Below are positions 6,453 to 61,453 of a DNA stretch of 64,000 nt, piece after piece. Source of the DNA: Bacteroidaceae bacterium (GTDB lineage: Bacteria; Bacteroidota; Bacteroidia; Bacteroidales; Bacteroidaceae); the NCBI GenBank assembly GCA_017445925.1, contig JAFSRW010000073.1, positions 16,553 through 80,552 on the forward strand. The letters run 5' to 3'. Made by a program: the position numbers and the translations under genes. A model generated the notes under the pieces. That model was not told where the DNA came from. It saw nothing but the letters and a program-made list of their open reading frames with translations, and did no database searches. How positions within the stretch are numbered: the first letter of the stretch is position 1; every line of letters begins with the position of its first letter.

Positions 6453-8042
6453 TCAAAAGTTATAATTATATGAGAGAGTGAAACCCTTTGTAGCAGGAAC
6501 ATACCTGCACACGCCACCCGAGCAGTTGTAGCCGGCACGTGTTCGTCCGTACCCAGCCTGTATTCGATGCGACTTAATATTAAACGTCACCAGTCCCTGA
6601 TAGTAATGCGTCTTGGTAGAACCATTGTTCCACATATCGCTGATGGTGAACATCCAATGGGGAGCCAGCGAGAGTTCAAGGAGGCCGAACAACCAGTCGC
6701 CCTGATCATCAGCCGTCTGCAGGTACTGCAACTCAGAGCGCTGTTTCACTTTGGGAGCCAACTGGAACAGTCCGTCGGCAATAAAGATATTGGAACGTAT
6801 CATACCGCCCGACCCTTCTATTACCGTCTTGTTGTAACGTTGGTTCATATACATCAAATTCAACTTAATGATCTTGCTCAGCTTGCGCGAGAGCAGCACA
6901 TCTATATCCTGATAATAGGTAACACCATGCCAGCGAACATGCGAGAAGTTTGCCTTCACATTCATGCCGTACTTGCCGCCAAGAGCAGTTTTGCGTTTGA
7001 AGTTATAACCTGCTTCGGCCTGCCAAGCCCATTCGCCGCCAGCCAGTTGAGTGGCATACGGATAAAGGGCAGCCAGAGCATAGGTATGGTCTTGCGTAAA
7101 GGCCGGCAGATGATTGATAAACGATGAAGTGCCCAACTGCGAGCGCTTGCTACGGAACGACATATTTTCACTTCGCTTAGCCTGCAATAATATGCTAAGT
7201 CCCTTTTTCGAGTAAGAACCAGAGACCATCGCAGCCGAACCGCAGTCATAACTGTATCCATTATCAAACGATGGGTCTTGCGTCTTATGTGCATATTCCA
7301 GCAACAAGCTCCAAGGCCCCTTGTCCAGTTGCGTTCTAATATCCCATGCATTCACGAACTCAGGAAAGTTGTACAAGTGAGTCGGGTCGGCATACACATC
7401 CTCCTGTTTCTCATATTTATTTACCCAAGAACCACCTAACATTAGTCTTGTATCCGATTGCTGCAAACGAGGAATCCATTCTTCCAGATGTAACTCAGCA
7501 TCAGCACCGCTGACTACCGATTTGTTCCATTCCCAATAACAGCGTTGCATACCACATAACGCCTTCACGGTGATGCCTTTATACGGCTTTACCACCACTC
7601 TACCGCCCAATAGTGCATTATCTATCCCCAGGGAGCGTTCCTCGTAAGTACGGAAGATAAAACCCGAACCAAACTGATCGTAAAACGTACCGCCCGTCAG
7701 TTCCACGCAGCCCAGACGTCCTTTTACCCAGAAGCTAGGTAAGCCCCAGCCCTTAAAGTCATTTTCGAATCCGGGCAGCGGATGCTCCAAATACTCAAGT
7801 CTGGCACCAGCATCTACCTTGCTGCCCTGCAACAGAATGTCGGCATACACATTCGCCTGAAAAGCCTCTTCCTTCAGCGCCCCTGTCCGTTCATCATTCT
7901 GCGGCACCAACATATCGGTCTGAACACTACCAGACACTTTGATAGGCTTCTGCTCTTGCGCGCAAAGCCTCCCCATTGAACATTGAAAATTGATAATTGA
8001 TAATTGGGTAACAAGCAGCAATAAAATACGTAGGAACTTCAT
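6453..8042 (-). CDS. DUF6029-type outer-membrane protein
   Basis: A protein of 529 aa, predicted to be a beta-barrel-like envelope protein. The sequence is rich in alternating aromatic strands and ends in F (...TKGFTLSYNYNF), as outer-membrane proteins do. It resembles the DUF6029 family found beside TlpA-like and Omp28 genes in Bacteroidales. The signal peptide is odd: between MKFLRILLLLVTQ and RLCAQEQ lies LSIINFQCSMG, encoded by an iterated attatca/ttcaatg word tract, as if a repeat had expanded inside the leader. It starts 28 bp after the TlpA-like gene, so co-transcription is probable. Confidence 0.75.
   Translation of the reverse strand: MKFLRILLLLVTQLSIINFQCSMGRLCAQEQKPIKVSGSVQTDMLVPQNDERTGALKEEAFQANVYADILLQGSKVDAGARLEYLEHPLPGFENDFKGWGLPSFWVKGRLGCVELTGGTFYDQFGSGFIFRTYEERSLGIDNALLGGRVVVKPYKGITVKALCGMQRCYWEWNKSVVSGADAELHLEEWIPRLQQSDTRLMLGGSWVNKYEKQEDVYADPTHLYNFPEFVNAWDIRTQLDKGPWSLLLEYAHKTQDPSFDNGYSYDCGSAAMVSGSYSKKGLSILLQAKRSENMSFRSKRSQLGTSSFINHLPAFTQDHTYALAALYPYATQLAGGEWAWQAEAGYNFKRKTALGGKYGMNVKANFSHVRWHGVTYYQDIDVLLSRKLSKIIKLNLMYMNQRYNKTVIEGSGGMIRSNIFIADGLFQLAPKVKQRSELQYLQTADDQGDWLFGLLELSLAPHWMFTISDMWNNGSTKTHYYQGLVTFNIKSHRIQAGYGRTRAGYNCSGGVCRYVPATKGFTLSYNYNF
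7974..8008 (-). repeat. Iterated-word tract inside a signal-peptide coding region
   Basis: The coding strand has ccaattatcaattatcaat, then tttcaatgttcaatgg. These are repeated attatca and ttcaatg words that keep the frame and encode QLSIINFQCSMG in the leader of the DUF6029 protein. Confidence 0.75.
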
Positions 8043-8055
8043 AATGTCAAACGAA

Positions 8056-8092
8056 AATAATTATCAATTGTCAATTATCAATTGTCAATTTT
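8056..8092. repeat. Iterated aattatcaattgtc word tract
   Basis: Alternating aattatc and aattgtc words span the end of the TlpA-like gene and the gap to the next gene. They supply the last codons (LTIDN) and the TAA stop of the upstream gene. Confidence 0.75.
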
Positions 8093-8568
8093 AAGAGTTC
8101 CCTCACTTTCTCAATCAATTCCTCTTCGGCTCCATCCGTATAACCATTATGCTTATACACGATGTTGCCCTTTCCGTCCACAATCAGAACGTAGGGAATC
8201 ATCTGAATGCCAAGGGCACGTTTCAGGTCGCCGTTTGGGTCCAGTAGCACCTCGTACTCCCAGCCGTGATTATCCACCAGCGGCTTTACCTTATTTATAT
8301 TCTGCGCCTGATCTATGCTCACGGCAATGATTTTCACACCAGTCTCCTTCTGCCAGTCGGCATACACCTCATGAATGGCGTCCAACTCGCGATTGCAAGG
8401 TTTGCACCAAGTGGCAAAGAAATCAATGATAAAGGGTTTACCTCCGTTTGACAGCGTATCCGTCTGCACCGTCTTTCCGTTAATATCCTTCAAGGAAATT
8501 TTAGGCAACTGAGCCTGAACGGCTTGTACGCCCAAAATGATTAAAAATAGTAATAAGAACCTCCCCAT
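8071..8568 (-). CDS. TlpA/ResA-like periplasmic thiol-disulfide oxidoreductase
   Basis: A protein of 165 aa with a signal peptide (MGRFLLLFLIILGVQAVQAQ) and one thioredoxin domain of the AhpC/TlpA type. The active site is FFATWCKPCNREL near residues 50-62. The cis-Pro loop is in QMIPYVLIVD near 122-131. Known family members reduce or isomerise disulfides in exported proteins. It heads the minus-strand cluster TlpA-DUF6029-Omp28-tailed protein-Omp28. That suggests oxidative maturation of these Cys-containing envelope proteins (inference). Confidence 0.9.
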   Translation of the reverse strand: MGRFLLLFLIILGVQAVQAQLPKISLKDINGKTVQTDTLSNGGKPFIIDFFATWCKPCNRELDAIHEVYADWQKETGVKIIAVSIDQAQNINKVKPLVDNHGWEYEVLLDPNGDLKRALGIQMIPYVLIVDGKGNIVYKHNGYTDGAEEELIEKVRELLKLTIDN

Positions 8569-8716: not shown

Positions 8717-9487
8717 ATGAAGCGATTATTTACATTAGCGATAACCATCGCCGTATGCTGTGCATCACAGGCACAGGAGAAAAAAGAGTACCCCAAGCCA
8801 GAACCCATGCGTCCAGGAATGTCGGAATACTGGACACCTCAGCCCAAAGTAGTTACGCCTGGCGACATCAAGACCAATACCGCTCCCAACGATGCCATTG
8901 TGCTTTTCGATGGGAAAGACCTCTCTGCCTGGATGAATTCCGATGGTGGGAAAGCCGAATGGACCGTTAAGAACGGCGTAATGACAGTCGACAAGTCGAA
9001 GGGCGACATTCTTACCCGCCAGAAGTTCGGCAGTTTCCAACTGCATCTGGAGTGGTGTGTACCACAGGGCATTACAGGCGAAAGTCAGGCAAGAGGCAAC
9101 AGCGGCGTCTTCCTGCAGGATATGTACGAGGTGCAGATTCTCGACTGTTACCAGAACGAGACCTACGTGAACGGTATGACGGGAAGCATCTATAAGCAGA
9201 CACCCCCATTGGTGAACGCCATGCGTAAGCCGGGCGAATGGAACGTATATGACATTATCTATACAGCTCCCATCTTCAAGGAAGACGGCACATATCTCTA
9301 TCACCCATTCGTGACGGTAATTCAGAACGGAATTGTCTTGCAGAACCATACCGAGATACAGGGCACCACAGAGTACATCGGCTTCCCACGTACCGTTAAG
9401 CACGCCGATGGGCCCATCCGTCTGCAATCTCATGGCGACCCCAGTCAGCCCATCAGTTTCCGTAACATTTGGATTAGACCTTTATGA
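8717..9487 (+). CDS. Secreted 3-keto-disaccharide hydrolase (DUF1080)
   Basis: A protein of 256 aa with a signal peptide (MKRLFTLAITIAVCCASQAQ) and a single DUF1080 concanavalin-like beta-sandwich. Family marks include IVLFDGKDLSAW near 61-72, NSGVFLQDMYEVQILDCY near 130-147 and the closing FRNIWIRPL. Members of this family cleave 3-keto-glycosides or eliminate the glycosidic bond after C3 oxidation. The next gene is a Gfo/Idh/MocA oxidoreductase with a Tat-type leader, which could supply the 3-keto group. The stop lies at the start of an iterated atgaatt tract that leads into the partner gene. Confidence 0.9.
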   Translation: MKRLFTLAITIAVCCASQAQEKKEYPKPEPMRPGMSEYWTPQPKVVTPGDIKTNTAPNDAIVLFDGKDLSAWMNSDGGKAEWTVKNGVMTVDKSKGDILTRQKFGSFQLHLEWCVPQGITGESQARGNSGVFLQDMYEVQILDCYQNETYVNGMTGSIYKQTPPLVNAMRKPGEWNVYDIIYTAPIFKEDGTYLYHPFVTVIQNGIVLQNHTEIQGTTEYIGFPRTVKHADGPIRLQSHGDPSQPISFRNIWIRPL

Positions 9488-9540
9488 ATTATGAATTATG
9501 AATTGTGGATTATGAATTGTGAATTATGAATTATGAATTA
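9482..9540 (+). repeat. Iterated atgaatt/attgtga word tract forming an intergenic spacer and a start codon
   Basis: About seven 7-8 bp words (atgaatt, atgaattgtg, gattatgaatt) run from the stop of the DUF1080 gene to the fifth codon of the oxidoreductase. The tract offers several ATG codons. The one at 9526 is in frame. Confidence 0.8.
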
Positions 9541-10948: not shown

Positions 10949-13039
10949 TTACCAAACATCTTCTGGAGTATTTGGGTTGTCGTAGATTTCCTTGGGGCAC
11001 CACTCTATGTAGTCGAGGAAGAGCTGCTTGTTGGGATTATCCTGCACACTCTTGAAGCGCAGGTAGTATACTCTGTCGGCATCCACATGGGTGCGGAGCA
11101 AGATACGACGGGTGGTCTTGGCCAGCGAACGAGCGGTCTGGTTTCCGCCTGGGATTTCAGTAAAGTACTCGGGGCCCTTCATGAATCCGTTGTTACGCAT
11201 ACGCTTGTCCACCTCGGCATTATAGTCATCGTCCTGCGTGTCGACCTCCCATTTAAGCGTTGGGTCGGTACCACCCAATCCCATGTTCACAGGGATTCCG
11301 GCAGGATAGAGGGCATCCTTGTTCTCGCCGTAATAAACCTGACAGATACCTCGCCAAGGACTCTCGGTGGATACACCCATTCTTATCTCGTAAGTACCTG
11401 AAATGGGCACAGGCGGCAGGCGAAGTGTTACGTCGTACGTTCCCTCGCAGAGCATTTCGTCGGCCTGATAGTTGGGCCAGTCCTGATTAATACCGTTCAG
11501 CAGGTAGAAAATCATGTCCTTGGTGTTGATGTTGATGTCGTTAAAGTACTGATATACCTCGTCGGCGGGGAATGAGTAGCGGTAGAAGTAGCTCATGCAT
11601 CGCATATCGTTAGACATCATTTCGGGAGCAAATTCCCATACGTCGTAACGGAGGCGGGTCTTCATCAGTTCAGTGCGGACGTGATTGTCGTAAACCAGCA
11701 CCTTGTCGATGGGATAGATGATGGAGTTTAGGAGCTTAACCATCTTAGACTCCACACCGGTATTCAGGTATATTCCTTCGTTATCATGGGTGCATGACAA
11801 CTCGTGATAGGTTCCTCTGCGGCCATTATCCATAACGGGGAAACGGTTCAGGTAAACGCCCTTGCTTTCAGCACTTTCCCACAGACGGAGCAGGCGTCGT
11901 TTTCCCATGGTAACGTAATGGTTCCATGCAGCTACCGTAGGCGCTTTGTTACGGCCTTTGGGGTTATAGCCTTTCTCGTTGTAATGCAGTACCAACTTGT
12001 CAACCGCTAATCGGCAAGGCAGCAGATGATAGGTAACAAACTGGTTGATGAGGTTGTTCTCGTCCTCGTAATTCTCATCGTTAATGGCATCGGGATAGAA
12101 GTTCTGTGATACTAACCATTCCCTTACATCATCGATGGTAATAGCCATCAGATCCTTTTTCAGGGTCTTTACCCAGAAATCATCCGTCTCGGCAAACAGG
12201 GTAAAGCCGTACTTGCGGGATGGCTGTGGCGGTACATAGGTACTGAGGTTGGGCCACCAGCTGTCGCCAATGATACCTATCTTCACCATTTTCTCGTACT
12301 CATAGTCTTTAACAGCTGACAGAGTATCGGTCAGTCCGCAAACTTCTACCAGCTTGGCCATGATGAAGTATCCGCAATCGGGCAACGTGGCATAAAGGTG
12401 AAGGGTACTACCGAGGGTCTCGTTGGTAGGATTGATGGCATAACCCACCTCGTGGATAAAACCGTTAAGACATTCTATATCGCGGTTCCTAAGAGAGACG
12501 GGGCATTTGCCGTCGATGAAACAAGAGTCGCGGTCGTTCTTGGCATAGATAACGCTGATTTTGCAGTCTGCCATGGTGTTAAGTGAGAATTCCTCGTTAT
12601 TATCGGGAAACTCGCTCACGGTAAACATCTTGCGGTCAGCATCCTTACCATCGATAAGGCTGTTCATTACTATCACGTAGCGGATAGAGTCCAGAACGCG
12701 CTCGCTGGGGAATCCTTCCCAACTGGGTTCTGAGATAACACCCTTAATGCATAGGGTGTCCAGATAAAGTTGGATAGCTGCGTTGGTGGGTGCAAAACAA
12801 GTGTAGGCTCCGTAAGCCGTCAATAACTGATAGACAGAGGTTTCTGAAATCTCGCTTACCTTCTGTTCTTTGCATAAGCGAACGTATTCGCTGAACTGCT
12901 CGTGGTCAGTTAGGTAGCCGCCAATGGTGCGCTCCTTAAAGACATAGCGTGCCGAGGTGTCGACATCCTCGGTACAACTGGTGACCAGAAAGGCCCCCAA
13001 TAGTAGAATGGAAATTAGGTTAAATACTTTGAATTTCAT
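10949..13039 (-). CDS. Fasciclin (FAS1) domain lipoprotein
   Basis: A protein of 696 aa. The lipoprotein leader (LLLGAFLVTSCTED) puts the lipid Cys near residue 22. Two FAS1-like units are suggested. The first, around 45-215, carries YTCFAPTNAAI, typical of fasciclin repeats. The second, around 230-430, carries YGFTLFAETDDF. The remaining C-terminal part is beta-rich and ends near YIEWCPKEIYDNPNTPEDVW. The family mediates adhesion or matrix interactions, and in Bacteroidetes such lipoproteins are often surface exposed. It follows the large CotH/lamin-tail gene on the same strand after 55 bp but has its own promoter. Confidence 0.85.
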   Translation of the reverse strand: MKFKVFNLISILLLGAFLVTSCTEDVDTSARYVFKERTIGGYLTDHEQFSEYVRLCKEQKVSEISETSVYQLLTAYGAYTCFAPTNAAIQLYLDTLCIKGVISEPSWEGFPSERVLDSIRYVIVMNSLIDGKDADRKMFTVSEFPDNNEEFSLNTMADCKISVIYAKNDRDSCFIDGKCPVSLRNRDIECLNGFIHEVGYAINPTNETLGSTLHLYATLPDCGYFIMAKLVEVCGLTDTLSAVKDYEYEKMVKIGIIGDSWWPNLSTYVPPQPSRKYGFTLFAETDDFWVKTLKKDLMAITIDDVREWLVSQNFYPDAINDENYEDENNLINQFVTYHLLPCRLAVDKLVLHYNEKGYNPKGRNKAPTVAAWNHYVTMGKRRLLRLWESAESKGVYLNRFPVMDNGRRGTYHELSCTHDNEGIYLNTGVESKMVKLLNSIIYPIDKVLVYDNHVRTELMKTRLRYDVWEFAPEMMSNDMRCMSYFYRYSFPADEVYQYFNDININTKDMIFYLLNGINQDWPNYQADEMLCEGTYDVTLRLPPVPISGTYEIRMGVSTESPWRGICQVYYGENKDALYPAGIPVNMGLGGTDPTLKWEVDTQDDDYNAEVDKRMRNNGFMKGPEYFTEIPGGNQTARSLAKTTRRILLRTHVDADRVYYLRFKSVQDNPNKQLFLDYIEWCPKEIYDNPNTPEDVW

Positions 13040-51487: not shown

Positions 51488-52167
51488 AGATTGTTGCTAA
51501 GATTCATACCGATTTCAAGACCAAATTCGGCGTTCCCCGTCAGAGCGGACTGGTAAAAGGCCTGAAGGGTCGCATAGTGTTTGAACCCGAATTCCGTAAT
51601 GTAGAGGCACTACGCGGACTGGAAGGTTTCTCGCATATCTGGTTGCTATGGGACTTCTCGGAAGCACACAGAGAAGGTGAAAGTTGGAGTCCAACGGTAC
51701 GTCCACCCCGCTTGGGAGGTAACCAGCGCATGGGGGTATGGGCAACAAGGAGTCCGTTCCGACCCAACAATATTGGTCTTTCATCGGTACGCATTACAAA
51801 AATAGACTTGCACACCCCCGAAGGACCAGTAATAGAAGTGGAGGGAGCCGACCTGATGGATGGCACACCCATACTGGACATAAAGCCTTATCTGCCCTTT
51901 ACTGATTCACATCCTGATGCCCGAGGCGGATTTGCCGAGGAGCAGAACAAAAAGATGGAACCTCTTGGGGTAGAGATTCCATCTGATATAGCTTGTTTGT
52001 TTGATTCTGATAAATTGGAAGCCTTACGCGGTGTACTGGCTGCCGACCCACGACCGCACTACCAACAGGACCCTGAACGTATCTACGCCTTGGAGTTTGC
52101 AGACTACGAATTGAAATTCCATGTTCAAGATGATACAGTAGTAGTTACGCAGGCCAAAGCCCTTTAG
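51484..52167 (+). CDS. trmO: tRNA (N6-threonylcarbamoyladenosine37-N6)-methyltransferase TrmO
   Basis: A protein of 227 aa. The TsaA/TrmO beta-barrel (about 1-140) carries PRQSGLVKGLKGRIVFEPEF, GFSHIWLLWDFS, RSPFRPNNIGLSSVRI and DIKPYLPFTD, all family signatures. A C-terminal domain follows. It methylates t6A37 of certain tRNAs with S-adenosylmethionine. The four-base overlap with the MATE gene implies coupled translation. Its stop overlaps the stop of the convergent thrC gene, leaving no intergenic space. Confidence 0.9.
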   Translation: MKIVAKIHTDFKTKFGVPRQSGLVKGLKGRIVFEPEFRNVEALRGLEGFSHIWLLWDFSEAHREGESWSPTVRPPRLGGNQRMGVWATRSPFRPNNIGLSSVRITKIDLHTPEGPVIEVEGADLMDGTPILDIKPYLPFTDSHPDARGGFAEEQNKKMEPLGVEIPSDIACLFDSDKLEALRGVLAADPRPHYQQDPERIYALEFADYELKFHVQDDTVVVTQAKAL

Positions 52168-53474
52168 CGACTCATCAAATAGGCCTTAAAGTCGGCAAAA
52201 TTCTTACTCATCGAAACACTCTGCTTCTCACCCTTCATAAAGGCTTGCAAGCGGGCAGGAATTTCTATTTCAGTACCACAGATTTCATCTACCACCTGCT
52301 TGAACTTGGCAGGATGGGCAGTCTCGAGGAAGAAGCCAATCTCTCCCTCACGCAATCCCTCTTGCAAAGCACGATATCCGCAAGCTCCGTGAGGGTCAAG
52401 CTGATAACCCGTTTCGGCAAGGCATTCACGCATGGTATGCGCTATCTGCTCATCAGAATAGCTTGCACCTGAGATATCCGAACAGATAGCTTCATAACTT
52501 CTGCCATACAAGTCGTAAATACGGGCGAAATTGCTAGGGTCACCCACATCCATAGCATTGGCAATGGTTTGCACACTTCTCTTAGGGAAGTACGATCCAG
52601 TCTGTAGGTAATAGAAAAATACATCGTTCTCGTTATTGGCAGCAATGAACCTGTTGATAGGTAATCCCATTCGCTTACCAAAGAGGGCCGAACAGATGTT
52701 GCCGAAGTTGCCGCTGGGAACACAACAAACCACGTTATCAGCAAGGCCGAGTTTCTTTAACTGCGCGTATGCATAGAAGTAATAGAAACTCTGGGGCAGG
52801 AAACGAGCCACATTAATGCTGTTGGCCGAGGTGAGCCGGATGTGCTCATTCAGTTCCTTATCCATAAAGGCACTCTTAACAAGCGCCTGACAGTCGTCGA
52901 ACACACCATCTACCTCGATAGCTGTGATATTCTGTCCCAAAGTAGTAAACTGGCACTCCTGAATGGGGCTGACCTTACCCTTGGGGTACAAAACGTACAC
53001 ATGAATGCCTTCTACACCCAAGAATCCGTTGGCAACGGCAGAACCTGTGTCTCCACTGGTGGCTACCAATACGTTCACTTGGCTCTCGCCCTTAAGGGAG
53101 AGCGGGGAGAGGGTCCACTGCAGTAGACGTGCCATGAAGCGGGCACCCACATCCTTGAAGGCCAAAGTAGGACCATGAAAAAGTTCAAGGCTGAAGATGT
53201 TATCTGTCACCTTAACCAAGGGCACATCAAAGGAGAGTGTGTCATAAACAATCTTGCGCAGTGCTTCTGCCTCTACATCCTCACCAAAGAAACAGTCGGC
53301 TACCTGATAGGCAATCTCCTGAAACGAGAGGTCTTGGATTTTTCCGAAGAACGACTGCGGAAGGGGTTTAATACTCTGGGGCATATATAGGCCCTTGTCT
53401 TCTGCCAATCCCTTTACAACTGCTTTTTGCAACGTTGCAAGAGGCGCTTTTCCGTTTGTACTATAGTATTTCAT
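52164..53474 (-). CDS. thrC: Threonine synthase
   Basis: A PLP enzyme of 436 aa that converts O-phosphohomoserine to threonine. The N-terminus (YYSTNGKAPLATLQKAVVKGLA) and PLP lysine site HGPTLAFKDVG (Lys107) are clear, as is NVLVATSGDTGSAVANG. Residues about 121-131 (TLSPLSLKGES), just before NVLVATSGD, are an insertion coded by a palindromic element and lie at a loop. It is the last gene of thrA-apgM-thrC, and its ATG is 37 bp after apgM. The stop codons of thrC and convergent trmO overlap. Confidence 0.95.
   Translation of the reverse strand: MKYYSTNGKAPLATLQKAVVKGLAEDKGLYMPQSIKPLPQSFFGKIQDLSFQEIAYQVADCFFGEDVEAEALRKIVYDTLSFDVPLVKVTDNIFSLELFHGPTLAFKDVGARFMARLLQWTLSPLSLKGESQVNVLVATSGDTGSAVANGFLGVEGIHVYVLYPKGKVSPIQECQFTTLGQNITAIEVDGVFDDCQALVKSAFMDKELNEHIRLTSANSINVARFLPQSFYYFYAYAQLKKLGLADNVVCCVPSGNFGNICSALFGKRMGLPINRFIAANNENDVFFYYLQTGSYFPKRSVQTIANAMDVGDPSNFARIYDLYGRSYEAICSDISGASYSDEQIAHTMRECLAETGYQLDPHGACGYRALQEGLREGEIGFFLETAHPAKFKQVVDEICGTEIEIPARLQAFMKGEKQSVSMSKNFADFKAYLMSR
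53083..53115 (-). repeat. In-frame palindromic element in thrC
   Basis: The coding strand reads GGACCCTCTCCCCGC then TCTCCCTTAAGGGCGAGAG: a C-rich arm, a TTAA centre and a G-rich arm. It keeps the frame and encodes about eleven residues between helix and strand. Confidence 0.8.
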
Positions 53475-53480
53475 TTTTTA

Positions 53481-53513
53481 CATTGAACATTGAACATTGA
53501 GCATTGAACATTA
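53481..53513. repeat. Iterated cattgaa word tract between thrC and apgM
   Basis: cattgaacattgaacattga and gcattgaacatt: four copies of an 8-9 bp word fill the spacer up to the apgM stop. Confidence 0.75.
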
Positions 53514-54734
53514 CCGTGAGTTATTCATGAAGGTTTTGATAAAGGCATCACCTTCAATTTTACCATAGGAGCCTTGCTTGGCCGCCGCCTCACTGAAAGT
53601 CTGCACACCATCAGGTTGTATGCCCGGATAGTAAATACAGAAAGGAACTGGCTCATTAGTATGGGTACGATGAGCAATGGGCGTTGGATGATCTGGCAAT
53701 AAGGCTATGGCAACCTCTTCACCAATGGTTGGAGCAGCTTCAAGAATGGGACGAATCAGACGGTTGTCCAAACTCTCTATGGTCTGCAGTTTGAGTCCAA
53801 GATTGCCGTCGTGTCCAGCCTCATCGCTGGCCTCTACATGAACGTAAACGAAATCGTCTCCTTCGCGTAAGGCCTGAATGGCAGCCTGGGCTTTCCCCTC
53901 GTAGTTGGTGTCCCAAAGACCTGTCGCGCCCTCCACATCAATCACACGCAAACCGGCATACTTACCGATGCCACGAATCAAATCGACTGCCGTAATAACA
54001 GAGCCCCTTTTGATTTGCGGATAGGTGACGGTCAGCGGCACCATCTGAGGCCTATATCCCCCACCCCAAGGCCAGATGCAGTTGGCGGGGTCCATGCCTC
54101 GCTGCTGACGTTCGATATTAAGTGGATGATCTTTGAGTAGCTCCTGACTCTTGAGAATCAAATCAATAAGCAAGGAAGCAGTCTCACTCCCCTCTCCTTT
54201 GGAGGGGGCAAGGGGGAGGCTTTCCCTCCAAGGCTTTAGGGGAATATCATGCGGAGGGGTACAGTTCAGATGCTTATTCCCTCCCTTTATTACCAAAAGA
54301 TGACGGTACTGAACACCTGTATAGAAATGTATACGTTCGTTGCCCAACTTTTCTTGCAGGAAACGGATAAGCACATCGCCCTCCTCGGTCTCCAAACGAC
54401 CACAGGAATGATTCTTCAGCAAATCGCCTTCCAGACAAACCAGATTGCAACGCATGGCCAAATCACCTAGCTCCAGTTCTACACCTATGCTGGCAGCCTC
54501 CAAAGGTCCGCGTCCTTCATAAACAAGGTGCTGGTCGTAACCCAGGATGCTGCTATTTGCAACCTCACTTCCAGGGTGGAATCCATCAGGGATGGTCTTC
54601 AGGAGACCATTCCTGCCATGCTGCGCCAACCAATCCATGTGTGGCGTAGCAGCATATTCCAAGAGGGTTTTACCACCCAGTTGGGGTACAGTCCAATCGG
54701 CCATACCATCGCCTAATATAATAAGATGCTTCAT
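53511..54734 (-). CDS. apgM: ApgM-type phosphoglycerate mutase-like protein, probable homoserine kinase of the threonine operon
   Basis: A protein of 407 aa of the alkaline-phosphatase superfamily. The metal site starts in ILGDGMADW, with further acidic and His residues in YVHVEASDEAGHDGN and LLPDHPTPIAHRTHT. It is classed as a cofactor-independent phosphoglycerate mutase (archaeal type). Its fixed place between thrA and thrC in Bacteroidetes, where no GHMP-type thrB is present, has led to the proposal that it phosphorylates homoserine. Residues about 166-186 (LKPWRESLPLAPSKGEGSE) are coded by a palindromic element in a variable loop. It starts 25 bp after thrA. Confidence 0.88.
   Translation of the reverse strand: MKHLIILGDGMADWTVPQLGGKTLLEYAATPHMDWLAQHGRNGLLKTIPDGFHPGSEVANSSILGYDQHLVYEGRGPLEAASIGVELELGDLAMRCNLVCLEGDLLKNHSCGRLETEEGDVLIRFLQEKLGNERIHFYTGVQYRHLLVIKGGNKHLNCTPPHDIPLKPWRESLPLAPSKGEGSETASLLIDLILKSQELLKDHPLNIERQQRGMDPANCIWPWGGGYRPQMVPLTVTYPQIKRGSVITAVDLIRGIGKYAGLRVIDVEGATGLWDTNYEGKAQAAIQALREGDDFVYVHVEASDEAGHDGNLGLKLQTIESLDNRLIRPILEAAPTIGEEVAIALLPDHPTPIAHRTHTNEPVPFCIYYPGIQPDGVQTFSEAAAKQGSYGKIEGDAFIKTFMNNSR
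54185..54242 (-). repeat. In-frame palindromic element in apgM
   Basis: The coding strand reads CCCCCTTGCCCCCTCC then AAAGGAGAGGGGAGTG, preceded by GCCTTGGAGGGAAAG. The C-rich and G-rich arms pair. The reading frame is kept through it. Confidence 0.8.
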
Positions 54735-54759
54735 GAGATATGGATAATGGATAGGACTA

Positions 54760-57183
54760 TCAGGCCAGACTCATAATGTCGGCAAATACACCTGCTGCCG
54801 TAACACTGGCTCCTGCGCCATATCCCTGAATAAGCATGGGGTACTCGTTGTATCGCTCTGTAGTGAGAAGTACAATGTTATTGGAACCCTCGAGTACATA
54901 GAAGGAATGGTCACGACTAAACTCTCCGAGTGCCACACTGGCCTTACCATTCTCGAACTTGGCAACAAAACGCCATACTTTATTCTCTTTCTCCAAGACA
55001 GCACGACGGGCTTCGAAATCGGCATCCAGCGAGGGAAGATTCTTCCAGAAATCTTCAATTGAACCCTCAAAGAAACGCTCAGGAATAAACAGTTTTATCT
55101 CTACGTCTTCCTGATTTATCTCGTAACCAGCCTCACGGGCCAAAATAACCAGTTTGCGAACAACATCCTTTCCACTGAGGTCCACACGTGGGTCTGGCTC
55201 GCTATAGCCCTCTGCCTTGGCCATCTCCACCGTCTTGCTGAAAGGAATATCCTTGCTGATGGTATTGAAGATGAAGTTGAGCGTTCCACTCAACACAGCC
55301 TCTATACGCAGAATCTTATCGCCTGAGTTGCAGAGGTCGTTGATGGTACGTATAATAGGCAGCCCTGCTCCCACATTAGCCTCGAAGAGGAACTTAACGC
55401 CACGCTTCTGGGCAATGTGCTTCAGTTCGCTATAGTTGGCATAATCGCTGCTGGCAGCTATCTTGTTGGCAGCCACCACATTGATGTTATGCGTTAGGAA
55501 GTCTTTGTACAAGCCTGCCACCTCTTCGCTGGCGGTGCAGTCAACAAATACACTGTTAAAGATGTTCATGCCTATCACCTCGTCGTGCAAACGCTGAATA
55601 TTGCTGGGTTCTGCCTGACGCAGACGCTCGCGGAAGTTGTCCAACTCCAAGCCTTCCCTGCGGAACATGGCATTATGTCCGCTGGCTATTCCCACCACAT
55701 TCAGTTTCAGTCGGAGTTCGCGCTTCAACTTCTCCTGCTGCTGATGAATCTGCTCTATCAGGCTGCCGCCTACGGTTCCAACTCCGCAGATAAAGATATT
55801 CAGCACCTGATACTCGCTCAGAAAAAAGGAGTCGTGGATTACATTCAGTGCCTTGCGCAGATAGTTCTGGTTGATAACGAATGAGATGTTGGTCTCGCTG
55901 GCACCCTGTGCACAGGCAATAACGCTAATACCACTACGGCCTAATGTTCCGAACAACTTACCGGCAATACCTGGGGTGTGCTTCATGTTCTCGCCCACGA
56001 CGGCAACAGTAGCCAAGCCTTTCTCGGCTATCATGGGGAACATGGCACCGTCTTCTATCTCTTTCTGGAACTCCAGATTCAGCACGCGGCAAGCCTCATC
56101 GGCATCTACATCCTGCACACCGATACTGGTGTTGTTCTCAGAACTTGCCTGACTAACCATAAACACGCTGATGCCGTTATCTGCCAGACAGGTAAAGATT
56201 CTGCGGTTCACACCAATCACGCCCACCATGGAAAGACCAGATACAGTAATCAGAGAAGTTCCCTTGATGCTGCTGATACCCTTGATGCTGCGCTTATCGT
56301 CCCTCACTACATCTTTTATGATGGAACCTGGGGCATCTGGGTTGAAGGTATTCTTGATTAGAATGGGAATATTCTTAATGCAGACAGGATAGATGGTAGG
56401 CGGATAAACCACCTTGGCACCGAAGTTACAGAGCTCCATAGCCTCTACGTAACTCAGTTCGGGAATAACGTAAGCAGCGCTGATAACACGTGGGTCGGCT
56501 GTCATAAAACCATCCACATCGGTCCAGATCTCCAGCACACTGGCACCTAAGGCTGCCGCAATGATACTGGCAGTATAGTCGCTACCGCCTCTGCCCAGAT
56601 TGGTAATCTCTCCGCTCTCGGCATCGGTACTGATAAAACCACCGACAACACTAATTTGGGGAATCGTCTTCCAATTCTGCTTCACCAGTTTATTGGTAAT
56701 TTCTGTAGCCAGACGCTTACGTCCCTGCTTTACCTCGGTCTTTATGAACTCGCGACTGTCAAACCACTCAGATCCTTCTATGAGGGTTGACACAATACGG
56801 GTGCTGATACGTTCGCCATAGCTGACAATAGCAGCAGAGGTCTTAGGGCTCAGGTCCTTAATCAGATAAACACCCTGATAGATGCTCTTCAGTTCATCAA
56901 GACTTTCCCTTACAACAGCCAACAGCTCTTCACGCTCCTTGCCTGCAGGAATAACGGTGTTCACCATATCCTCATGGCGAGCCACAATCTCCTTGAAGCT
57001 GTCCTGATAAGAGGCATCACCCTCTACAGCCAATTGGCTGGTTTTTATAAGCTTGTCTGTGATTCCACCCAAAGCGCTAACCACAACGATTACGGGTTCG
57101 CTCTGACTTTCAACAATCTTTTTTACATTAAGAATACTATCTGCAGAACCTACGGATGTTCCGCCAAATTTAAGTACTTTCAT
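54760..57183 (-). CDS. thrA: Bifunctional aspartokinase / homoserine dehydrogenase
   Basis: A protein of 807 aa. The aspartokinase domain (about 1-290) begins MKVLKFGGTSVGSADSILN. Paired ACT domains (about 310-455) carry GISVFMVSQASSENNTS and probably sense threonine. The homoserine dehydrogenase domain (about 465-807) includes FICGVGTVGGSLIEQI, ANKIAASS and VLSGTLNFIFNTIS. It performs the first and third steps from aspartate to threonine and methionine. It heads the operon thrA-apgM-thrC behind its own promoter and a 28-nt leader. That leader is too short for an attenuator, so regulation is likely by feedback. Confidence 0.95.
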   Translation of the reverse strand: MKVLKFGGTSVGSADSILNVKKIVESQSEPVIVVVSALGGITDKLIKTSQLAVEGDASYQDSFKEIVARHEDMVNTVIPAGKEREELLAVVRESLDELKSIYQGVYLIKDLSPKTSAAIVSYGERISTRIVSTLIEGSEWFDSREFIKTEVKQGRKRLATEITNKLVKQNWKTIPQISVVGGFISTDAESGEITNLGRGGSDYTASIIAAALGASVLEIWTDVDGFMTADPRVISAAYVIPELSYVEAMELCNFGAKVVYPPTIYPVCIKNIPILIKNTFNPDAPGSIIKDVVRDDKRSIKGISSIKGTSLITVSGLSMVGVIGVNRRIFTCLADNGISVFMVSQASSENNTSIGVQDVDADEACRVLNLEFQKEIEDGAMFPMIAEKGLATVAVVGENMKHTPGIAGKLFGTLGRSGISVIACAQGASETNISFVINQNYLRKALNVIHDSFFLSEYQVLNIFICGVGTVGGSLIEQIHQQQEKLKRELRLKLNVVGIASGHNAMFRREGLELDNFRERLRQAEPSNIQRLHDEVIGMNIFNSVFVDCTASEEVAGLYKDFLTHNINVVAANKIAASSDYANYSELKHIAQKRGVKFLFEANVGAGLPIIRTINDLCNSGDKILRIEAVLSGTLNFIFNTISKDIPFSKTVEMAKAEGYSEPDPRVDLSGKDVVRKLVILAREAGYEINQEDVEIKLFIPERFFEGSIEDFWKNLPSLDADFEARRAVLEKENKVWRFVAKFENGKASVALGEFSRDHSFYVLEGSNNIVLLTTERYNEYPMLIQGYGAGASVTAAGVFADIMSLA

Positions 57184-57217
57184 CCCTTTGCTAAACTAAT
57201 CTTGTACAAAACTTGCG

Positions 57218-57225
57218 CAAAAGTA
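57218..57225 (-). promoter_or_regulatory. -7 box for the threonine operon
   Basis: The minus strand reads TACTTTTG, 35 bp before the thrA ATG. A TTTG lies about 23 bp upstream. Confidence 0.6.
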
Positions 57226-57269
57226 ATAATATTTTTCCAATTGACGGGCAAAAAACTGGAAATTATTTG

Positions 57270-57277
57270 TACTTTTG
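57270..57277 (+). promoter_or_regulatory. -7 box for the FAD-dependent oxidoreductase
   Basis: TACTTTTG on the plus strand lies 17 bp before the ATG at 57295. It is arranged back-to-back with the thrA promoter inside 110 bp. Confidence 0.6.
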
Positions 57278-57294
57278 CTATACATTATTAATAT

Positions 57295-58866
<1,572 letters not shown>

Positions 58867-58867
58867 A

Positions 58868-58935
58868 AAACGATAACGTTAACGATAACGATAACCCTTT
58901 TCTCCGTTAATAATCAATAACCTATAACCGATAAC
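58868..58935 (+). repeat. Iterated cgataac word tract
   Basis: aacgataacgttaacgataa and cgataacc repeat a 6-bp word, followed by ataacctataaccgataacc. The same words in reverse (ggttatcgttagcg) occur at 63210-63248. Confidence 0.7.
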
Positions 58936-58938
58936 CGA

Positions 58939-59508
58939 TCACTTAACCAATACTTTCTTACCGTCTATTACGAATACAGCACCGTTCTTATGGTGCGTTA
59001 CCTTACGACCAGAAAGATCATAAGCACCGTTTATATTCTTATTCGTTGCAGCAACACCTGTTATAGCCGTAGCATCCTCTACTGTGATGGCAGTTACATC
59101 CTCAGCAACATGAGGCGTCGCATCGGGCTCCACAAACATAATATTATCTATGCTGATGGTACTGGGGTTACCCTTAACCTTAAACGACAAAAGGTTGCCG
59201 TTCTGACTCTTAAAGGCTGTAGTAGCCTTGCTGAATGCTATAATGCGGTACTTACCTTCAGGAGCACCTAACATCAGGTTATGGTCACACAGCAAGGTGT
59301 CACATGCCATTCCCGACTCAGGAACAAGAGCCTCGCCCTCCATAGCCACATCCATCTGGAAGGCAGTAAAGTCCAATTCATTCCCCTCCAGTCCGATATT
59401 AAAGGTCCATGTACTGTCGTTCTCCTGAAGCATCGTTACAGAAACCTCGTAAGCACTGGCCATCTGAGCCATCAGAAGCATCACGCAAAAACTCAATATT
59501 TTCTTCAT
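58939..59508 (-). CDS. Secreted cohesin-like protein with sorting tail
   Basis: A protein of 189 aa with a signal peptide (MKKILSFCVMLLMAQMASA). One beta-sandwich, with FTAFQMDVAMEGEALVP near 48-64 and KYRIIAFSKATTAFKSQNGNLL, has the strand pattern of cohesin-type domains. A short linker with DVTAITVEDATAITG leads to the tail YDLSGRKVTHHKNGAVFVIDGKKVLVK (shown in two parts: YDLSGRKVTHHK, VFVIDGKKVLVK). The function is unknown. The tail suggests surface export, as in four other proteins of the window. A -7 box lies 32 bp upstream. Confidence 0.75.
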   Translation of the reverse strand: MKKILSFCVMLLMAQMASAYEVSVTMLQENDSTWTFNIGLEGNELDFTAFQMDVAMEGEALVPESGMACDTLLCDHNLMLGAPEGKYRIIAFSKATTAFKSQNGNLLSFKVKGNPSTISIDNIMFVEPDATPHVAEDVTAITVEDATAITGVAATNKNINGAYDLSGRKVTHHKNGAVFVIDGKKVLVK

Positions 59509-59539
59509 TTTATAGTATAGATTTATTTCTTTCTGACTG

Positions 59540-59547
59540 CAAATATA
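59540..59547 (-). promoter_or_regulatory. -7 box for the cohesin-like gene
   Basis: The minus strand reads TATATTTG, 32 bp before the ATG at 59508. Confidence 0.6.
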
Positions 59548-59601
59548 CGCACTTCCATCGGATTTACCAAAAAGCAGGTGGGTATTTTTGTCAAATACCG
59601 T

Positions 59602-61011
59602 CTATCCGAACAATTCTCTTACGGCTTCTGCCACTCTCCGTACAGGAACAATCTCTATTTTGTACTGCTTAGGGTTGATTCCCTTCAGATTAAAGGAAGG
59701 AATGAGAATCCGTTGGAATCCCAACTTCTGCGCCTCCGCAATACGTTGTTCAATACGGGAAACAGGACGTATTTCACCGCTCAGTCCCACCTCGCCCGTT
59801 ACGCATACGTCTGTCTCTATCGGCATATCCCCGTTGCTGCTCAGCACAGCCGCTATAACAGCCAGGTCCAAAGCGGGGTCAGTCACACGCAAACCGCCAG
59901 CTATGTTCAGGAATACATCTTTGGTAGCCAGCTTGAACCCCACCCGCTTCTCCAATACAGCCAATAGCATATTCAGCCTTCTACTCTCATACCCTGTGGT
60001 ACTACGCTGAGCTGTGCCATAAGCCGCCGTACTCACCAAGGCTTGCGTTTCTATCATAAAGGGACGTGCTCCTTCTATAGCACAGGCTATGGCAATGCCT
60101 GAAAGTCCTTCTCTATCATCTGTCAACAGCAGTTCGCTGGGATTGGAAACCTGACGGAGCCCATCGTGCTTCATCTCATAGATACCCAACTCGCTAGTGC
60201 TGCCAAAGCGATTCTTGATGCTGCGAAGAATACGATACATATAATGCTGGTCGCCCTCGAATTGCAAAACAGCATCCACAATATGCTCCAGCACCTTGGG
60301 GCCAGCCAACGTTCCTTCCTTAGTAATATGACCTATCAGAATAATGCTCACGCCCCCACCCTTGGCATACTTTAGCAGACTGGCAGCACATTCGCGTATC
60401 TGACTCAGACTGCCAGGACTGCTTTCCACCGTCTCCGTCTGAATAGTCTGGATAGAATCTATCACCACCAAATCGGGCTGCGTCTCCTCAATTTGCGTAT
60501 AGATATGTTCCAGCGATGTCTCTGTAAGAATCAATAAACCAGATTCTTCACTCCCCTCCTTAACAGGGAGGGGCTGGGGGTGAGTCCCTAGTCTATCAGC
60601 CCTCAGCTTTATCTGTCTTGCACTCTCCTCTCCACTTACATACAGCACCTTTTTATCTGTTAGTCGCAGAACGGTCTGCAAGATAAGCGTACTCTTACCT
60701 ATTCCTGGCTCACCGCCCAACAGCACCAAGCTGCCTGGCACCAGTCCACCACCAAGAACGCGATTCAGCTCTTCATCCCCCATATCTATACGGGGTTCCG
60801 AATCAGCCACAATCTGATTAAGTGGTGAAGGACACTCGCCGTTCCCTTGAGAAAACACCAAGGAATGAGTCCTCCCCCTAGAGGGGGAGTTAGAGAGGGT
60901 CCTAAATTCCTTCATGCTATTCCACCTGCCGCAGGAGGGGCACTTGCCCACCCACTTCACGCTCTCCTGGCCGCAGTAGTCGCAAACATACAGAGTTTTA
61001 TCCTTAGCCAT
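59602..61011 (-). CDS. radA: DNA repair protein RadA (Sms)
   Basis: A protein of 469 aa. The N-terminal zinc finger is CDYCGQESVKWVGKCPSCGRW (Cys10, 13, 24, 27). Walker A GGEPGIGKST is at 99-108, KNRFG is the RadA motif (near 255), and a Lon-like C-terminal domain follows. It processes recombination intermediates as a DnaB-like branch-migration helicase. Two segments are extra relative to the family: about 37-58 (RTLSNSPSRGRTHSLVFSQG) and about 142-157 (GTHPQPLPVKEGSEES). Each coincides with a palindromic element in a loop. It follows the DUF2147 gene by 8 bp. Confidence 0.93.
   Translation of the reverse strand: MAKDKTLYVCDYCGQESVKWVGKCPSCGRWNSMKEFRTLSNSPSRGRTHSLVFSQGNGECPSPLNQIVADSEPRIDMGDEELNRVLGGGLVPGSLVLLGGEPGIGKSTLILQTVLRLTDKKVLYVSGEESARQIKLRADRLGTHPQPLPVKEGSEESGLLILTETSLEHIYTQIEETQPDLVVIDSIQTIQTETVESSPGSLSQIRECAASLLKYAKGGGVSIILIGHITKEGTLAGPKVLEHIVDAVLQFEGDQHYMYRILRSIKNRFGSTSELGIYEMKHDGLRQVSNPSELLLTDDREGLSGIAIACAIEGARPFMIETQALVSTAAYGTAQRSTTGYESRRLNMLLAVLEKRVGFKLATKDVFLNIAGGLRVTDPALDLAVIAAVLSSNGDMPIETDVCVTGEVGLSGEIRPVSRIEQRIAEAQKLGFQRILIPSFNLKGINPKQYKIEIVPVRRVAEAVRELFG
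60549..60588 (-). repeat. In-frame palindromic element in radA, second site
   Basis: The coding strand reads GGGACTCACCCCCAGC then CCCTCCCTGTTAAGGAGGGG. The core CCCCTCC...GGAGGGG pairs around TGTTAA. It encodes HPQPLPVKEGSEE after the ADRLG helix. Confidence 0.85.
60866..60902 (-). repeat. In-frame palindromic element in radA, first site
   Basis: The coding strand reads GGACCCTCTCTAACT then CCCCCTCTAGGGGGAGGACTC. The core CTCCCCCTCTAGGGGGAG is a near-perfect palindrome. It encodes RTLSNSPSRGRTH after the zinc finger. Confidence 0.85.
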
Positions 61012-61018
61012 AATCCGT

Positions 61019-61453
61019 TTACTTCAACTTTTTCCAGTAAACACGGCCAAAGAAGGGCCCCAGATAACCCTTAACGGTCAGCGTCTTTTCATCTTTGAAG
61101 CTCAGCGCCACCGTAAAGTACTTTCCTCTGGTAGGATCATAAATTTTACCATCTTTCCAAGTATCCTTACCATCGTACTTAACCTTATCTATAAGTACTA
61201 CTTTGTCGTTGGTGATGTTCCTTTTTGCAGGGTCCGGATTCTTGACATCCCTTCTAAGCGTGCCGTCCTCCTTTTTCAAGTCCGAAACCCATGTACACTG
61301 AGCTCTATATCCGTCAGCATACTTATAAATTATTATTCTGGAATCCACCCCGTCATGTTCACATTGGTACTCCCCCACAATCTTATCCGCCTGCGCAAAA
61401 ACAGCACAGACGCATGAAAAAATAAACGCAATGCTAATCAAAAATCTCTTCAT
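61019..61453 (-). CDS. DUF2147-family exported protein
   Basis: A protein of 144 aa from ATG 61453 (MKRFLISIAFIFSCVCAVFAQ, signal peptide); the longer frame covers the promoter region. The DUF2147 beta-barrel begins with DKIVGEYQCEHDG and ends with TVKGYLGPFFGRVYWKKLK, typical of this family. The YDPTRGKYFTVALSF segment is also conserved. The molecular role is not known for the family. It has its own promoter and precedes radA by 8 bp, so radA is probably co-transcribed. Confidence 0.85.
   Translation of the reverse strand: MKRFLISIAFIFSCVCAVFAQADKIVGEYQCEHDGVDSRIIIYKYADGYRAQCTWVSDLKKEDGTLRRDVKNPDPAKRNITNDKVVLIDKVKYDGKDTWKDGKIYDPTRGKYFTVALSFKDEKTLTVKGYLGPFFGRVYWKKLK

Follow-up and report, generated by a model that had tools for sequence, protein, structure and literature searches.

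Short palindromic repeats within the reading frames of thrC, apgM and radA in a Bacteroidaceae genome and their probable origin from a mobile element

How GC-rich palindromes come to lie, and to be tolerated, within essential genes is the question raised by a 64,000-nucleotide stretch of a Bacteroidaceae genome (hereafter the window, G000:C31:16553-80552), in which the genes encoding threonine synthase (thrC), 2,3-bisphosphoglycerate-independent phosphoglycerate mutase (apgM) and RadA (radA) carry four such palindromes between them. The genome comprises 3.3 Mb in 100 contigs, is 84% complete, and has as its nearest named relatives rumen metagenome-assembled genomes labelled Bacteroidaceae or Bacteroidales. 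Palindromes that code for protein have been reported chiefly in Rickettsia, with cases in a few further bacteria, and are usually regarded as a curiosity of that genus or as rare examples of repetitive extragenic palindromes (REPs) lying within genes. The analysis described here demonstrated a multicopy family with in-frame copies in many unrelated genes; at orthologous loops the element is present in some relatives and absent from others, and its state has changed repeatedly. The four palindromes are likely to be copies of a short REP-like mobile repeat, which kept the frame in tolerant loops and was then subject to decay or trimming.

A palindromic family with in-frame copies

The element consists of a C-rich leader of approximately 14 nt, a spacer of approximately 2 nt and a pyrimidine/purine hairpin of 7-10 bp, giving copies of approximately 35 bases; the leader begins with [AG]G[AC]CC in 40 of 64 copies. 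A sequence-only profile, R1, was trained on 58 of 60 candidate copies, all located outside the window, the two without a leader having been dropped; a covariance model with base pairs failed. Over the 64-kb window, R1 identified exactly four sites (E-values of 5e-5 to 2e-4), with no further match up to an E-value of 1. The sites and their host genes are:

52164..53474, minus strand: thrC (threonine synthase, 436 aa), host gene; phmmer match to PDB 1vb3, E 5e-102
53085..53115, minus strand: element in thrC, within the loop that precedes NVLVATSGD, peptide TLSPLSLKGES; R1 E 2e-4
53511..54734, minus strand: apgM (2,3-bisphosphoglycerate-independent phosphoglycerate mutase, 407 aa), host gene; PDB 2zkt, E 2.5e-66
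54189..54222, minus strand: element in apgM, peptide SLPLAPSKGEGS; R1 E 7e-5
59602..61011, minus strand: radA (469 aa), host gene; PDB 5lkm, E 3e-130
60553..60587, minus strand: element at radA site 2, peptide THPQPLPVKEGS, after ADRL; R1 E 5e-5
60871..60903, minus strand: element at radA site 1, within the linker that follows the zinc finger, peptide TLSNSPSRGR; R1 E 2e-4

All four copies are in frame, and in each the asymmetric leader lies 5' on the coding strand, as in thrC, where the leader GGACCCTCTCCCCG is followed by the hairpin. An earlier inspection of this DNA (the sequence-only reading) had proposed that palindromes in the three genes keep the frame, and hairpins were indeed found at all four sites. 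It had also extended the apgM element over 54185-54242 and counted LKPWRE, after TPPHDIP, among the inserted residues; the hairpin was recovered at 54189-54222, but the element stops short of 54242 and LKPWRE is conserved in insert-free relatives. The C-rich-then-G-rich order noted in that reading is uninformative by itself because such a palindrome reads alike on both strands, and the common leader orientation of the four copies does not extend to the genome as a rule (see below). An Rfam search of 52000-61200 at E ≤ 1 returned a single sub-threshold match, at 58543-58642, away from the elements. The structural mapping suggested earlier was carried out for ApgM with an AlphaFold2 model (mean predicted local distance difference test score, pLDDT, of 89), in which the element-containing block 171-180 has a pLDDT of 72, the lowest of any ten-residue block, and the element is predicted to form a coil directly ahead of helix 182-201. 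The RadA model was poor (mean pLDDT 53), with both elements in its low-confidence stretches.

Genome-wide, the core CCCTCC-N0-14-GGAGGG gave 95 matches compared to 4 for the reversed pattern, so that the element occurs above chance beyond the window, a test which the sequence-only reading had itself called for. Further counts were made on 416,565 bases of DNA from this genome, comprising the window and 19 stretches taken mostly from contigs already with matches. Hairpins with the pyrimidine arm first outnumbered those with the purine arm first by 72 to 9, whereas all GC-rich hairpins pooled were near control level (143 versus 120 in a Markov control); the signal is therefore specific to the pyrimidine-arm-first class. 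R1 found 65 sites in this sample, including the 58 training copies. As short imperfect palindromes of 20-40 bp in high copy, the elements fall within the general description of REPs. A central role for G-quadruplexes was rejected, the corresponding pattern fitting 10 of 64 copies and none of the four in the window.

Long frames were defined as those of at least 180 codons, with at least 60 codons before and at least 20 after the copy, and 29 of the 65 R1 copies lie inside such frames (16 sense, 13 antisense). The remainder are near frame starts (19, including RadA site 1; many of the others there may be upstream of the true start), near frame ends (2), in shorter frames (10) or outside any 60-codon frame (5). 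Element density, taken as the hairpin count less the purine-first control, is approximately 0.10 per kb in frames versus 0.68 per kb outside, and coding DNA is therefore depleted, though not free, of elements. Pfam analysis of 10 selected host frames found domains in 9, the hosts including a DEAD-box helicase, a sigma-54 response regulator, an outer membrane efflux protein and leucyl-tRNA synthetase, the latter with two copies, both within the editing-domain match. As to why GC-rich hairpins are tolerated in essential loci, a question left by the sequence-only reading, a partial answer is that an element is open in 5.1 of six frames on average, compared to 3.9 for random genomic 34-mers and 4.8 for shuffled elements, so composition explains most of the translatability, and that Gly, Pro and Ser make up 51% of the residues in 30 element-coded peptides.

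Turnover and loop length among relatives

Hairpins were mapped onto orthologues of the three proteins, the locus L016 from the same genome being left out of this mapping and of the loop comparison. With the window included, pyrimidine-first hairpins numbered 27 in 24 of 75 ThrC rows (purine-first, 1), 18 in 14 of 49 RadA rows (purine-first, 3) and 19 in 13 of 81 ApgM rows; some of these, too, are chance occurrences, such as at the RadA zinc finger. R1 gave 55 sites across 79 of the 80 loci linked to apgM in other species, L068 being left out both here and in the tree. This tree was built from the ThrC and ApgM columns of 74 rows (the window and 73 relatives) with the loops masked, and showed element presence at ThrC 124-131 in 10 rows with a minimum of 6 changes (5 forced by starred branches), the label for the ThrC loop leaving out L049 and L104, which have 6-bp arms. 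Corresponding values at other ThrC positions were 4 rows and 4 changes (241), 4 rows and 3 changes (325) and 2 rows and 2 changes (90), while in ApgM the minimum was 8 changes for 8 rows at 174-179 and 4 changes for 5 rows at 337; decayed-looking copies in the ApgM loop of L046, L048 and L049 were scored as absent, hence some changes may be decay and not excision. The same loops have thus switched state repeatedly among relatives, gains being inseparable from losses or decay.

Comparison of a second region (L141) with the genomes of relatives gave a similar mixture. In the efflux gene, G463 shares the element at L141:13471-13504 and G462 lacks it, the element at 11288 lacks a counterpart in G463, and at L141:5724 a different element-like sequence is found in G463; several other elements also face a different element-like sequence in relatives, and one alignment of the 14 is incomplete. 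In the same region, a 2.6-kb block (L141:14369-16943, G000:C16:74369-76943) is 99% identical to G462:C40:5100-7674, with the preceding DNA approximately 78% identical. The blastn coordinates place the start of the block at one palindromic element and its end approximately 20 nt short of the following one, a pattern suggestive of recombination at the elements.

The sequence-only reading had regarded the element residues as extra, and had asked whether orthologues carry the same residues at the same positions. The element proved patchy at orthologous loops, so this test does not refute a variable element; extra length is clear only at RadA site 2, where the window has 17 residues versus 11 in L046, L048, L050 and L051, all without the element, and where PDB 5lkm shows an 11-residue gap. 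L047 and L049 also have 17 residues at this site, with decayed-looking copies. At the other three sites the change in length is small. The ThrC loop before NVLVATSGD spans 31-59 aa (modal 34, in 21 of 74 rows) and is 37 aa in the window; in the nearest relative, L046, with 96% identity to the window across the ThrC and ApgM columns after masking, the ThrC copy is absent and an unrelated repeat stands in its place. The insert-free ApgM loop is of the TPPHDIPLKPWRDYMLRAECPEAEETA type, with a modal length of 52 aa between markers among 80 orthologues, and the window loop of 53 aa has SLPLAPSKGEGSETA replacing native residues. RadA site 1 is 35 residues long, compared to 33-35 in L047, L050 and L051, which lack the element; L046, L048 and L049 have related sequence there. 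The ThrC loop is 6 residues longer than that of PDB 1vb3 and the ApgM loop 4 longer than that of PDB 2zkt, with element-free relatives accounting for about half or more of this excess. A clear excess over element-free close relatives is confined to RadA site 2, so simple addition accounts for the loops less well than insertion followed by trimming, or replacement. The ApgM loops of L056 and L076 reach 70 and 71 aa, with a palindrome followed by a native-like tail, and on their sequence look like untrimmed insertions; those of L047 and L050 (60 and 59 aa) carry another palindrome.

Other repeats are also found in these proteins and in the surrounding DNA. The ThrC loop of L046, L053, L055, L057 and L061 codes for other repeat peptides (KDLKDSKDLKE, SLNSKSLNSK, SSSSSASSTS and the like), so repeats of several types gather at this loop. 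Tandem arrays with a 7-nt unit number 112 in 417 kb of DNA from this genome, compared to 16, 16 and 18 for periods of 6, 8 and 9, respectively. The window holds an array at 57985-58024, within a 523-aa frame (57295-58866), and 17 more, for example at 7973-8010, 8059-8094, 9480-9514 and 53476-53513. Twenty-three of the 112 arrays lie inside long frames, and the encoded peptides repeat every 7 residues, as in NSQLSTLNSQL.

Relation to known repeats and a candidate mover

Among 296 genomes of the phylum, this one included, palindrome counts are mostly low, the highest others being 146 (G173) and 84 (G178); within the genus they range from 0 to 324. A blastn search of a plasmid collection with one 40-nt copy, at an E-value limit of 10 that admits weak matches, returned 106 records, 40 of them covering at least 80% of the query. 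Sinorhizobium contributed most records, whereas among the 15 matches listed the better E-values are mostly cyanobacterial. In the three plasmid genes opened, the element is in frame with no internal stops; the cyanobacterial hosts are annotated as a DNA methyltransferase and DUF1156 (E 6e-6, the best, and 8e-5), and a match in a Vitreoscilla dehydrogenase (E 2) has the same element layout. Judging from these matches, this kind of element is probably not confined to Bacteroidota.

In PMC3733652, Rickettsia palindromic elements (RPEs) are described as multicopy palindromes in frame within unrelated genes and differing between species; RPE-4 and RPE-6 are CGTC repeats, and RPE-1 insertions are longer. 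The present element is likewise found in frame in unrelated protein genes and is patchy between species. It differs from RPE-4 and RPE-6, as compared by description, in having CGTC at the foot in only 2 of 64 copies and in belonging to another phylum. The GTAG and CGTC REPs described in the same paper are 20-40 bp long, in high copy, and in some cases within DNA repair and tRNA synthetase genes (Di Nocera et al. 2013, PMC3733652), in which the word Prevotella is absent. The present element shares with them its short length, high copy number, partly intragenic location and a tRNA synthetase host. However, GT[AG]G was found at either foot in 0 of 64 copies, the hairpin being preceded instead by the C-rich leader of approximately 14 nt. 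REP-associated tyrosine transposases (RAYTs) are defined as flanked by their REPs (PMC2817692). For RAYT subclass 2.4, found in Bacteroidetes and Cyanobacteria, PMC6006769 reports REPs in frame within the tnpA-REP genes, generally between HuH and Y, as well as GT[AG]G REPs, sometimes with a double foot, flanking the gene. The present element resembles these in its range, with matches in Cyanobacteria, and differs from them in lacking both the GT[AG]G foot and the RAYT flanking. Having failed the foot and flanking tests, the element was filed neither as a REP nor as an RPE; it works like both, and membership in either is not supported. The likeness to Rickettsia elements in a different phylum drawn by the sequence-only reading thus holds for a multicopy, species-variable, in-frame loop element and not, lacking the CGTC end, for membership of the Rickettsia family. 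No description of the element, its peptides or palindromes in Prevotella or Bacteroidales was recognised among the matches listed in the open-licence PMC literature; an 11-nt string match in PMC7565180 was discarded as unrelated.

A plain IS200/RAYT mover was rejected, as a PF01797 search of the genome gave no matches and strong IS200-type matches occur in low-copy genomes (G149, 4 palindromes; G098, 10). Three kinds of Y1 protein are found in the genus: an IS200-type of approximately 150 aa, a 182-aa RAYT that exceeds the NCBIfam cut-off, and a divergent RAYT-like family that falls short of this threshold. Nine aligned members of the latter are 335-448 aa long, and three tested against REP_Tyr_transpos (NF047646) scored 33-43 bits (cut-off 80); this model gave no match in the present genome at E ≤ 0.01. 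A profile built from the divergent family, A1, has matches in 94 of the 139 genomes of the genus. The present genome is among the 94, and in it a frame of 426 codons (G000:C79:40359-41585) encodes PEHLH and YIAANPRSR, corresponding to HuH and to a tyrosine followed by N-P. Across the 139 genomes, the number of A1 matches correlates with the palindrome count (Spearman 0.57, p 1e-13, ignoring phylogeny, genome size and completeness), the median being 54.5 palindromes with an A1 match versus 12 without, and the NCBIfam-based test gave a coefficient of 0.56. The most likely mover, proposed tentatively, is a divergent RAYT-like HuH/Y1 transposase that would act in trans on single-stranded hairpins.

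Two observations concern the RAYT-like loci of this genome. The gene on G000:C79 has heptanucleotide arrays on both sides (L180:838-947 and 2236-2306), which are absent at nine other RAYT-like loci checked. On G000:C11 (L177, 10252-10863), a 391-codon frame holds only the C-terminal half of the RAYT-like family and lacks HuH, and it was rejected as a transposase on these grounds; its N-terminus presumably resembles ORF6N.

Alternative explanations and implications

Under the mobile-repeat explanation, copies would land throughout the genome and, within genes, the survivors would be those that keep the frame in tolerant loops or linkers. Such copies would be translated as Gly/Pro/Ser-rich segments, the peptides being presumably synthesised and neutral, and would later lose pairing and, after insertion, be trimmed towards the native loop length. 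Several observations weigh against this explanation or its proposed mover. RNAalifold on a MAFFT alignment of element copies yielded zero consensus pairs, and purine-first control hairpins in ApgM, mostly at conserved codons, are as numerous (19) as the pyrimidine-first ones. No clean empty site with a target duplication was found in the comparisons with relatives. Three of the four copies shift loop length by at most approximately 3 residues, so we infer the insertion itself. In L114 (68% ThrC identity), a nearly identical element occupies the same ThrC site, which is free of it both in L111, the neighbour of L114, and in L046, the neighbour of the window; parallel insertion or exchange is therefore needed. 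In 6 of the 14 comparisons for L141, the elements are nearly unchanged, so copies can also persist. With respect to the mover, A1 counts are of matched pieces and not genes, and include the C11 protein; G093 (124 palindromes), G020, G033 and G100 bear palindromes without an A1 match, and nine A1-positive genomes have fewer than six palindromes. Elements occur within 500 nt of a RAYT-like locus at 2 of 33 loci and on both sides at 0 of 33 (a few flanks ending at contig ends), one of the two being in the present genome, with a copy 182 nt before the RAYT-like frame.

The rarity of elements beside RAYT-like genes and the copy-rich G093 are also consistent with spread without a RAYT, through template switching, ectopic gene conversion, recombination between copies or an unrelated transposase. 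At ApgM and RadA site 1 the loop hardly changes in length, which suits replacement over insertion, and the 2.6-kb block shared with G462 is bounded by or near elements; yet copy number rises with the number of RAYT-like matches, and recurrence in unrelated genes is hard to achieve via recombination between unlike sequences. Spread of this kind is a serious possibility, although rather doubtful on balance. It is unlikely that the hairpins are retained as RNA or DNA signals within genes, acting in mRNA structure, attenuation or protein binding. The GC-rich hairpins, the copies fitting a G-quadruplex pattern and the properties of REPs in other bacteria, which are bound by IHF, DNA polymerase I and gyrase and may increase the stability of mRNA (PMC6006769), would suit such a role, but the elements are patchy between close species, look decayed at RadA site 2 in L047 and L049, match no Rfam family and occur in both orientations. 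The loops are variable and of low complexity, pooled GC-rich hairpins hardly exceed the Markov control and shuffled elements are nearly as open, as would be expected if the palindromes had arisen by chance from linkers rich in proline and glycine within C/G-rich DNA. For the entire family, chance or composition was rejected on the basis of the core count, the arm order and the recovery of exactly four sites by a profile trained outside the window; with near-identical elements also found in other genes and species, a chance origin is highly improbable.

It is conceivable, if short of an even prospect, that translation-compatible palindromes form a single ancient family spanning phyla and continually supply proteins with new loops, entering housekeeping proteins in frame and then being trimmed and decaying into ordinary-looking linkers; if so, much of the loop diversity in Prevotella-type proteins would be fossil mobile DNA. 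One element type is found in loops of ThrC, ApgM, RadA, leucyl-tRNA synthetase and other proteins of a single genome, and such hairpins turn over at the same loops in more than 20 relatives. With many sequenced relatives, this provides a tractable system for investigating how mobile DNA turns into protein sequence, and a caution to annotators and structure modellers that variable loops may have a recurrent origin.

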